A stretch of 27,710 bases of DNA. It comes from a virus. Every line of letters begins with the position of its first letter. Within the stretch, counting starts at the first letter, position 1. The stretch lies in IMG/VR virus record IMGVR_UViG_3300010392_001036, positions 1 through 27,710 of that record; one strand, given 5' to 3'. This document shows positions 4,444 through 27,710 of the stretch, piece by piece. The position numbers were made by a program, and so were the translations under genes. The notes below the pieces were generated by a model that did not search any database, was not told the DNA's origin, and saw only the letters and a program-made list of their open reading frames with translations.

Positions 4444-4545
4444 ATGACTGGTTATCACTACGCTCTAGCAATGATGCTCTTGAGACGAGGCAGACCTCAG
4501 GACAAGCTTGCAGCCGAAAACCTGTTAAAGTATGGATGCAAATAG
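4444..4545 (+). CDS. 33-residue microprotein
   Basis: GAGGA sits 7 nt before the ATG. The product begins MTGYHYALAMMLLRRGRP and looks like one amphipathic, basic helix, ending YGCK. The gene is flanked closely by others, and its stop is immediately followed by the AGGAGG of the next gene. No function is recognised. Confidence 0.48.
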   Translation: MTGYHYALAMMLLRRGRPQDKLAAENLLKYGCK

Positions 4546-4557
4546 GAGGGTATGACA

Positions 4558-4734
4558 ATGACGCCAGCGCAACAGAAATACATCAAGGATTGGGAGTCCA
4601 TCGCCGGGCGAGACTTCCTGTGGCCCGAAGACGCCAAGTCGTTCATGGAGGCGGTTCATTGGAACAATGGCCACATGGAGGACGTAGTGGCCGAGCTTGT
4701 CCACATTCCGGCTCCGATACCGTTGTCGGCGTAA
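4558..4734 (+). CDS. 58-residue hypothetical protein
   Basis: A consensus AGGAGG (4545-4550) decides the start. The ATG at 4558 has 7-8 nt spacing, while the in-frame ATG at 4552 is too close. The product, starting MTPAQQKYIKDW, is compact and acidic with aromatic residues (RDFLWPEDAKSFMEAV). It is the last gene before the structured 223-bp gap. No domain is recognised. Confidence 0.62.
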   Translation: MTPAQQKYIKDWESIAGRDFLWPEDAKSFMEAVHWNNGHMEDVVAELVHIPAPIPLSA

Positions 4735-4742
4735 TCGAGGGA

Positions 4743-4937
4743 TTGTTTAACAGGGCGGCGGCGTGGAAGGACACGCTAACCAACGGGGATAGGCCAGTCA
4801 CCCGCGTTATGCGGCGATGCCCCGGCGAAATGAATGATGACGCGCGTTGTGCTCTGATCCGTCAGAGGCAACGAGCAGAGTTCTGAGGAACCAAACTGGT
4901 CAAGCCGGTATCAAGCCCGGCCCGCCCTGTTAAACAA
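4743..4937 (+). ncRNA. candidate structured RNA closed by a perfect 16-bp inverted repeat
   Basis: TTGTTTAACAGGGCGG (4743-4758) is exactly complementary to 4922-4937. The 163 nt between can form further helices. These are GCGTG/CACGC (4761-4765 with 4772-4776), CGGGGAT/ATgCCCCG with a one-base bulge (4784-4790 with 4817-4824), and CCGC/GCGG nested inside it (4802-4805 with 4811-4814). Also present are CTCTGA-TCCG-TCAGAG (4852-4867, a UNCG-type tetraloop) and GCCGG/CCGGC (4904-4908 with 4917-4921), stacked on the closing stem. Together they resemble a multibranched RNA about 195 nt long. It lies 9 nt after one gene and ends 20 nt before the next, so it could be a trans-acting RNA or a leader controlling the 135-residue gene. 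Weak coding alternatives exist in this gap. Strand is assumed from the neighbouring genes. Confidence 0.45.
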
Positions 4938-4957: not shown

Positions 4958-5365
4958 ATGACTTACACACCTGAACTTGGACAAGCGATCTTTGGGCAGC
5001 CATACAAGGAATATGCCGTGCCGGATATATGGGAAGCCGCGCTAGCATTCCTGAGTCACGAACTTGACCGCGTTATGTGGAATATTCATCAAAAGCAGTA
5101 CGTCGGTCCGTTTGGCAACAGCGGAGATGCGTTTCGTTGCGGAGTATTTGAGGTGGAAGCCTATTCGTGGGATGACGAATACGATCAACCATGGAATTTC
5201 AAATGGCGCGACGTTGAAATCAGTTGGTATAAATACCTCGGTCGCGGCATGTCTGCGAATCAGGAATTAACGCCAGAGCGAGCAGCGGACATGTTAACGG
5301 AATGCTTGCTAGCGTGCAAAAAATACGAAGATAGCAACGACACGCGCAGACCATGCCCCCCCTAA
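4958..5365 (+). CDS. conserved phage protein of unknown function
   Basis: This 135-residue acidic, aromatic-rich protein starts MTYTPELGQAIFGQPYKEY. Its middle contains VFEVEAYSWDDEYDQPWNF and EISWYKYLGRGMSANQEL, a block I associate with conserved uncharacterised phage proteins. GGAGAGAG lies before the ATG. Codon use is more AT-rich than its neighbours (TTA, GCT, ATA codons), hinting at separate acquisition. It is the last + strand gene: its TAA overlaps the stop of the opposing gene. No catalytic motif is seen. Confidence 0.75.
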   Translation: MTYTPELGQAIFGQPYKEYAVPDIWEAALAFLSHELDRVMWNIHQKQYVGPFGNSGDAFRCGVFEVEAYSWDDEYDQPWNFKWRDVEISWYKYLGRGMSANQELTPERAADMLTECLLACKKYEDSNDTRRPCPP

Positions 5366-27208: not shown

Positions 27209-27435
27209 TATTCCCCCTCGTCTCCCATGACCAACTGATCCCCGTACTGCGCGATGATACGGCAGTCGTAGAGGATCTCGGGTACGGGGCGTTGATCGTG
27301 TGCGATGGTCGCGTTGTCGCCGGTAATGGCGATCATGGTGATGTGGTCTATCTCGTCCTGGTGACGGTAGAGCCAGTTGATAATGGACTTGGCTGTCGGT
27401 GGAGCGTCCGTCTCCAGTTCGATGATGTCAGCCAT
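27208..27435 (-). CDS. 75-residue leader gene of the late unit
   Basis: The ATG at 27435 is preferred over a GTG at 27513 because the upstream extension is low-complexity and poorly structured. The product begins MADIIELETDAPPTAKSIIN. It has a helical half (IINWLYRHQDEIDHITMIAIT), and the remainder DQRPVPEILYDCRIIAQYGDQ is alpha/beta-like. AGGGG lies about 10 nt upstream. It is the first gene of the late unit within this window. Function unknown. Confidence 0.62.
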   Translation of the reverse strand: MADIIELETDAPPTAKSIINWLYRHQDEIDHITMIAITGDNATIAHDQRPVPEILYDCRIIAQYGDQLVMGDEGE

Positions 27436-27710
27436 ACCATCTTGCCCCTGGTTGTTGAATTGCGCGGGCCGGGCGTTACTCCGGCTAGGTGCTTTTGGCC
27501 GAGCACCGGTCACGGCCTTAGACCCGTTTGCCCTGCGCTTCTACTTTCAGCGCCGCCGCGCAAACTGAATCCGCCCGCTCACCCCTGCTCAACCATTCGG
27601 CGGGGAGAGACCGCCGTTGTATGGGATGCTTTTAGAGGTGGCGGGCGAAACTAGCTAGACACGTCGTGACGTGTCCGAATGCCGCTTCTGCGCGTGGCAG
27701 ATCGGCGGTA
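27436..27710 (-). promoter_or_regulatory. non-coding leader of the late unit with inverted repeats
   Basis: No convincing gene was found in this 275-bp edge region. It holds two hairpins: GGTGCT/AGCACC with 8-nt loop (27488-27493 with 27502-27507) and CGGCGG/CCGCCG with 7-nt loop (27598-27603 with 27611-27616). It also holds the 18-bp palindrome listed separately. It probably includes the late promoter or control region, but no clear -35/-10 pair could be identified. Confidence 0.4.
27658..27675. promoter_or_regulatory. 18-bp palindrome, operator candidate
   Basis: GACACGTC and GACGTGTC are perfect 8-bp inverted arms separated by GT. The size and symmetry fit a dimeric HTH protein site. It lies upstream of the first - strand late gene, and two candidate HTH proteins (3549-3908 and 22615-22887) occur in the window. 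CTAGCTAG, another palindrome, lies immediately beside it at 27651-27658. Confidence 0.45.

Follow-up and report, generated by a model that had tools for sequence, protein, structure and literature searches.

A putative phage RNA family with a constant frame and an exchangeable insert

The DNA analysed here (the window) is a viral stretch of 27,710 nt, positions 1 to 27,710 of IMG/VR record IMGVR_UViG_3300010392_001036. On its + strand, a 60-aa gene (4552-4734) with a good Shine-Dalgarno sequence is followed by a 135-aa gene starting at 4958, and the element that concerns us (copy 1, 4743-4937) lies between the two. Its ends form a perfect 16-bp inverted repeat, TTGTTTAACAGGGCGG (4743-4758) and CCGCCCTGTTAAACAA (4922-4937), enclosing 163 nt, so the stem, its contents and its place in a gene gap are as an initial annotation, made from the letters of the window alone, had described them. 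A 116-aa ORF at 4536-4886 (+), which overlaps the RNA in a frame other than that of the 60-aa gene, is probably a shadow ORF.

The fold of the + strand of the element reaches -84.8 kcal/mol, compared with -66.2 +/- 4.5 kcal/mol for its shuffles (z = -4.1; none of 200 shuffles was as good). The - strand folds nearly equally well (z = -4.05); fold energy by itself is therefore no proof of an RNA and does not tell which strand encodes it. The initial annotation had recognised no tRNA or tmRNA features in the element, and neither ARAGORN nor Rfam calls any there. An Rfam scan of the window gave nothing at the gathering thresholds and, up to E = 10, only chance matches to snoRNAs, while the phage records searched contain no close relative of the whole window.

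The first lead came from a low-stringency search of phage records, which returned 23-nt exact matches in the unrelated phages phiKX1, phiKX2 and DMCA and a match at 95.8% in Pan3, all of them in unannotated intergenic DNA. The matching piece is a hairpin, AGCCGGTATCAAGCCCGGC (4903-4921). Used as an exact 19-mer query, it is present in at least 120 viral-contig stretches and in 87 from bacterial genome contigs, the bacterial hosts being mostly Acetobacteraceae, Rhizobiales, sphingomonads and Betaproteobacteria.

The members gathered (204 distinct ones of class 1 and about 80 of class 2, the classes being defined by their loops, below) have a constant frame in the order P1, C-R linker, hairpin P2, variable insert, A, hairpin P4 and P1' (Table 1). 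P1 is 6-20 bp long, with a mode of 7-9 bp, and the part of it modelled across the family is the inner 7 bp (4752-4758 in copy 1). The insert between P2 and P4 spans 35-200 nt, rarely more. Both window copies meet the criteria of the proposed family, i.e., the frame helices plus a matched loop pair. Note that the P2 loop and pairing were selection criteria for the 204 members whose position counts are given in the table.

Table 1. Features of the two copies of the element in the window.
Feature	Position	Strand	Basis or remark
Copy 1 (class 1), P1 5' strand	4743..4758	+	16 bp; perfect inverted repeat; covariation of P1 in the family; covariance-model hit 4752-4928
Copy 1, C-R linker from P1 to P2	4759..4760	+	column counts (n=204): C 99%, G 88% / A 10%
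Copy 1, P2 hairpin GCGUG-GAAGGA-CACGC	4761..4776	+	class-1 loop GANGGA; compensatory variants at all five pairs in the family
Copy 1, exchangeable insert, 126 nt	4777..4902	+	sole detected relative in contig L087 (55 nt, 87% identity)
Copy 1, insert helix CGGGG (4784-4788) / CCCCG (4820-4824)	4784..4824	+	crosses P3; both strands kept in L087
Copy 1, insert P3 5' strand GGCCAGU	4792..4798	+	7 pairs with 4895-4901
Copy 1, insert hairpin CUCUGA-UCCG-UCAGAG	4852..4867	+	sequence; tetraloop TCCG at 4858-4861
Copy 1, insert P3 3' strand ACUGGUC	4895..4901	+	one nt ahead of the conserved A
Copy 1, conserved A ahead of P4	4903	+	99% in 204 members
Copy 1, P4 hairpin GCCGG-UAUCAAGC-CCGGC	4904..4921	+	class-1 loop; widespread exact 19-mer; stem covaries
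Copy 1, P1 3' strand	4922..4937	+	abuts P4 directly; inverted repeat and family architecture
Copy 2 (class 2), P1 5' strand UUGCGCGG	27556..27563	-	pairs with 27460-27467
Copy 2, P2 hairpin GCGCU-GAAAGUAGA-AGCGC	27535..27553	-	class-2 loop
Copy 2, insert, 48 nt	27487..27534	-	unrelated to the copy-1 insert
Copy 2, P4 hairpin GCCGG-AGUAACGC-CCGGC	27468..27485	-	class-2 loop
Copy 2, P1 3' strand CCGCGCAA	27460..27467	-	24 nt upstream of the probable start codon at 27435(-)

Because our detector itself demanded pairing, we retested the pairing with members anchored on their loop sequences alone. In this set (n=142), P1 positions 1-7 are paired in 93-99% of members and P2 in 97-100%, and when the partner is slid by one or two bases as a control, P1 and P2 pairing collapses overall. 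P4 is paired in 100% of 129 members found via P2, where its pairing was not demanded, and the third pair of its stem occurs as CG, AU, GC and UA. In alignment A1, which comprises 64 members and excludes the window, both partners vary at 15 of 17 pairs, and G-U pairs are tolerated in the frame stems; the 100% pairing of A1 is partly due to selection, pairing having been part of the inclusion criteria. The covariance model R1 was built from A1, and the window was thus held out; R1 matches it at 4752-4928 with 71.9 bits (E ~6e-13). Phage QDWS595, filed under Schitoviridae, has a P2 of UCGAU-GAAGGA-AUCGA, which has almost no sequence in common with the usual stem, and a P4 stem of GCAGG/CCUGC. P1, P2 and P4 all covary and, as far as sequence comparison can establish it, we have little doubt that the structured RNA family is real.

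The initial annotation had proposed a novel structured RNA, an idea that homologues without compensatory changes would have refuted. Instead, there are hundreds of homologues, with compensatory changes in every frame helix, and the covariance search against Rfam that it suggested gives the element no family. With Rfam 15, across the window and 36 loci, the frame likewise matches nothing at the gathering thresholds; the only hits are to tRNA, in inserts or neighbouring genes, and one, unrelated, to Burkholderiales-2, outside the RNA. The last of these (RF02917) is at L026:1542-1615 (-), approximately 0.9 kb from a frame RNA. The helix that the annotation saw stacked on the closing stem corresponds to P4 (4904-4921), a conserved hairpin. 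What the annotation could not have seen are the second copy, the two classes of loops, the exchangeability of the insert and the association with tRNA. In some members (L027, L047, L094, L344), the P2 loop is interrupted after its GA by a long extra hairpin, whose position is that of a predicted second insertion point of the frame.

Six cultured phages (DMCA, Pan3, AP1, phiKX1, phiKX2 and QDWS595) have one covariance-model hit each, all unannotated. In evenly drawn bacterial genomes, R1 under strict filters finds the RNA in 13 of 200 around Acetobacter (family level) and in 4 of 398 at phylum level, with four copies in one genome; this is as expected for prophages. E. coli genomes gave no match. 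Two kinds of candidate were rejected. The pattern GCCGGTNNCAAGCCCGGC also catches coding sequences of no relation (e.g., tape-measure genes of mycobacteriophages); these are discarded by the covariance model, under which only three of L224-L263 score. Secondly, P4 19-mers in a Bacillota MAG, a Bacteroidales MAG, Glutamicibacter and an acidobacterium have no covariance-model hits and are probably chance. The Bordetella IFTN phages, which are relatives of member contigs, are without the frame RNA. One of them, vB_BaM-IFTN2, has a different closed-stem RNA (L587:2584-2665) where relatives carry the frame RNA: a stem of approximately 20 bp around approximately 40 nt, without P2 or P4. The other IFTN phages are without it, and its core has no exact match among viral contigs.

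R1 also finds a second copy in the window, at 27461-27562(-), with 42.1 bits (E ~7e-7). The start codon downstream of it, leading into terminase genes, is a probable one. This copy differs from class 1 in the loops of both hairpins, and like pairs of changed loops are present in L075, L092, L124, L174 and L291. A scan with the class-2 P4 gave at least 120 more viral-contig stretches; P1 and P2 are present in 91 of 114 distinct hits, and the P2 loop of these is mostly GAAAGCAGA.

Class-1 RNAs combine a P2 loop of GANGGA with a P4 loop of UNUCRANN, and class-2 RNAs combine GAAAG[C/U]NGA with AGUARCGC. Over all loci, there are 200 class-1/class-1 loop pairs, 64 class-2/class-2 pairs and no chimeras, with 11 loops fitting neither definition. 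In class-2 RNAs, position 5 of P4 and position 6 of P2 combine as G-C in 63 cases, as A-U in 5 and as a mismatch in 1 (Fisher p ~1e-7); copy 2 of the window is of the rarer A-U kind, with the A in its P4 loop and the U in its P2 loop. Neither these counts nor the p value takes phylogeny into account. Because the P2 and P4 loops change together, we consider it probable that they touch each other, though this contact is predicted from covariation. That it is also like the elbow of tRNA and formed within one molecule is an even bet. The class-2 loops are not T-loop-like, so the elbow reading rests on topology and on class 1. Both classes can reside in a single phage, as they do in the window, L075, L092 and L454. 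Further P4 loop variants occur in L152, L159, L207 and L200:1513-1647, namely UAACCAAY, and UGCAAUUC together with a P2 loop of GACAGCGA. These variants suggest, from their sequences, that there may be more than two loop classes.

The insert follows other rules. Among class-1 inserts, 178 of 204 have no relative within their class; the same is true of 77 of 79 class-2 inserts, and four similar pairs cross the classes. In L026/L076 (flanks 97-98% identical), L178/L287, L109/L293 and L022/L115, flanks and frame are common to both loci and the insert is different; we dropped the same-contig flank pairs L097 and L099, where the flank windows overlap. It is very likely, judging by these alignments, that insert turnover is wholesale replacement and not drift.

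Where an insert does have a relative, it is RNA-like. In L087, all 7 pairs of the insert helix P3 are retained (GAGCGGU/ACCGCUC); relative to the window, two of them have changed on both sides and one carries a single compensating change. The L075 and L088 inserts have a helix altered in step. P3-like helices abut P4 in many members. In copy 1, the CGGGG/CCCCG helix crossing P3 is a probable pseudoknot, as predicted from its complementarity. The UNCG-type hairpin of the initial annotation is present, but it belongs to the variable part, and its loop is not conserved in L087. As nested folds, the inserts are not unusually stable relative to shuffles (mean z -0.35). A universal P3 helix, sought in all inserts, gave only a modest excess over shuffles, a universal H-type pseudoknot an excess of approximately 2.6-fold without being universal, and a conserved motif only weak k-mers (e.g., GGUAG and GGAUAG), none of them universal. 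Given the unremarkable nested-fold stability and the modest pseudoknot excess, part of what the insert does may depend on its sequence and not on its shape.

Some inserts are related to tRNA. A perfect T-arm is found in 11 of 283 (approximately 4%), where shuffles predict 0.02, and the controls gave none on the antisense strand of the inserts and 2 in 386 flank segments. The inserts of L062, L084 and Pan3 score above the Rfam tRNA threshold. Where a tRNA or tmRNA is recorded within 1 kb of a member, it is on the same strand in 30 of 31 cases, sometimes only 2-7 nt away. At L187:3432-3751, a viral contig encodes a permuted tmRNA, and a member of the family follows it on the same strand after 21 nt. 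The class-2 insert of L372 is like a circularly permuted tRNA, with a T-arm, acceptor halves joined by GAGG, and a D-arm.

The frame has its own likeness to the tRNA and tmRNA domain: a closing stem, a 2-nt linker, a D-arm-like hairpin with GG in its loop, and a T-arm-like P4 (5 bp, with the class-1 loop UNUCRANN resembling a T loop plus one base) that abuts the closing stem, as well as promoters and tRNA-adjacent loci. It differs in its 8-nt P4 loop, its closing stem of 6-20 bp and its lack of an anticodon arm. Moreover, the family has no signal for a CCA after P1 at the 3' end, the class-2 loops are not T-loops, and neither ARAGORN nor Rfam calls the frame a tRNA, a score that only some inserts attain. 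The frame does not match tmRNA models either, and tmRNA is only the neighbour of one member (L187). In the engineered tRNA scaffold, the anticodon arm of a tRNA-like frame is exchanged for a foreign RNA, so that the latter is stabilised and displayed. The phage frame is comparable to this and related aptamer scaffolds in displaying foreign RNA in a tRNA-like frame, but it is apparently natural and widespread, and it has two orthogonal loop codes.

Is the RNA a transcript of its own? In 30 of 190 upstream sequences, the -10 hexamer of the best sigma-70-like site ends exactly 6 nt ahead of P1 (approximately 1.6 are expected per position), which places the start of transcription at the first base of P1. 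This peak persists in clustered (deduplicated) upstream sequences and is seen in both classes; about a sixth of the members have such a box. Both window copies are without a good -10 box. Downstream of members, no excess of intrinsic terminators marks a 3' end. Flanking genes have no strand preference (++ 39, +- 36, -- 32, -+ 32), and there is no recurring neighbour gene family among 148 flanking proteins. The initial annotation left open whether the element was a small RNA or a cis-acting leader. Because there is no flank strand bias, no recurring neighbour, and a -10 box at P1 in many members, we favour the first of these and think a stand-alone transcript likely.

The second, a cis-acting 5' leader of the following gene, would be an HK022 put-like antitermination element or a translational switch whose insert senses something or engages polymerase. 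HK022 put consists of phage RNA hairpin elements in operon leaders, two per genome, and the window also holds two copies. Both are leader-like, lying 20 nt (copy 1) and 24 nt (copy 2) before a same-strand start codon, the latter ahead of late/terminase genes. Across the family, a same-strand start with a Shine-Dalgarno sequence lies within 70 nt downstream in 45 of 237 members, compared with 14 and 16 in two of the controls, and NusG-type antiterminators make up 3 of the 148 neighbouring proteins. The enrichment of close starts and the leader-like window copies mean that a cis role is not excluded. As a family, however, the RNA lacks the leader bias in flanking-gene strands, no downstream gene recurs and the positional test is not met. 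Members in DMCA and Pan3 are in convergent or operon-end positions, several members have their own promoter starting at P1, some are beside tRNA genes, and tandem copies with different inserts occur. We therefore regard the leader reading as unlikely.

The nearest described RNAs are GOLLD and ROOL, which suggest a different use of the loops: the frame could homo-oligomerise through contacts between molecules, with the insert as an enclosed or displayed linker and the two codes preventing co-resident classes from mixing. The ecology is the same (phages, prophages and loci often near tRNA genes, function unknown), as are the loop-loop contacts and the combination of a conserved part with a poorly conserved linker; the variable linker of GOLLD sometimes holds tRNAs (PMC12286853). 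The matched, orthogonal loop codes found together in the window and in the three other contigs named above would also suit it. On the other hand, the frame RNA is far smaller (about 100-300 nt), is unrelated in sequence and structure, and has no match to the GOLLD or ROOL models of Rfam; its variable part is replaced wholesale and bounded exactly by P2 and P4. Linkers of 2 nt and 0 nt suit docking within one molecule, and this analysis holds no evidence of oligomers, which leaves this reading no better placed than the leader.

Less probable again is a guide RNA, in which the insert would pair with a target nucleic acid and the frame would bind a nuclease or repressor encoded elsewhere. A constant handle with unrelated variable parts is what one would expect of it, and phages do encode guide systems: the VIPR vrRNAs are phage-encoded guide RNAs (PMC13142463), with constant and variable parts, that are implicated in conflict. 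However, vrRNAs are tandem GGY/NN repeats tied to the Vipr protein, neither of which was found for the frame RNA, and there is no linked effector or associated protein family among the 148 flanking proteins. Among the loci examined, inserts match essentially other inserts alone; compensatory changes preserve helices in them (window/L087), and some of them contain complete folded tRNAs.

We give very little credence to a DNA-level element without RNA function (a captured cassette, or a recombination hairpin of the integron attC kind): the ends are conserved and what lies between them is precisely replaced, which does resemble cassette exchange, and insertion and absence are seen among related Bordetella phages, but G-U pairs in stems, the loop-loop code, P1-aligned promoters and strand-specific T-arms point to RNA. 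A self-cleaving ribozyme is just as improbable: ribozymes tolerate variable peripheral domains, and class-1 P4 (GCCGGUAUCAAGCCCGG) has what we take to be a resemblance to the P4/L4 element of twister, but no Rfam ribozyme, twister included, matches in 37 sources, class 2 replaces the resembling loop, and there is no conserved candidate cleavage site outside the loops.

The explanation we somewhat prefer is that of an independent phage RNA gene whose frame clamps the ends of the molecule and displays an exchangeable core. The transcript would begin and end in helix P1, on which P2 and P4 sit in the same order as the D arm and T arm on the acceptor stem of tRNA, with their matched loops probably in contact by the class-1 or class-2 code. 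The place that the anticodon arm takes in tRNA is occupied, between P2 and P4, by an interior domain that is swapped between related phages. We infer that the frame may serve to stabilise and display the insert, in the manner of a clamp or end cap, and that the insert may be the active part, acting in trans during infection. Its most likely action, again by inference, would be that of a decoy or counter-defence factor that binds or imitates an RNA partner in the host, sometimes a tRNA; an arms race would drive the rapid exchange of inserts. The structure and the exchange are well supported, and the elbow geometry, the stabilising role, the action in trans and the function are inferred. The decoy or counter-defence idea is based on rapid replacement, on presence and absence among related Bordetella phages and on tRNA cores; there are no transcript or phenotype data, and we offer it only tentatively.

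The phage RNA family appears to be new, as it is in neither Rfam nor accessible papers. We found no description of it in the open-access literature; preprints and subscription papers were mostly uncovered, so an unseen description is possible. In its fullest form, which we put forward as a speculation, the family would be a natural phage RNA-display system: an elbow-like frame with two orthogonal codes, able to coexist, would carry domains, tRNA mimics among them, that are exchanged like cassettes from phage to phage and that either block host defence or take over the RNA machinery of the host.

This RNA is carried, without annotation in the records examined, by hundreds of phages and prophages, among them cultured phages of Caulobacter, Komagataeibacter, Alcaligenes and Acidovorax. 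With its frame fixed and its core replaceable, it would be the RNA counterpart of modular protein effectors, whose swapped part is the one under selection. Should the cores be counter-defence RNAs, the family would offer a ready catalogue of natural RNA inhibitors that can be found by two short loop signatures. The frame, given that its two loop codes exclude each other, would also lend itself to RNA engineering as a natural scaffold.
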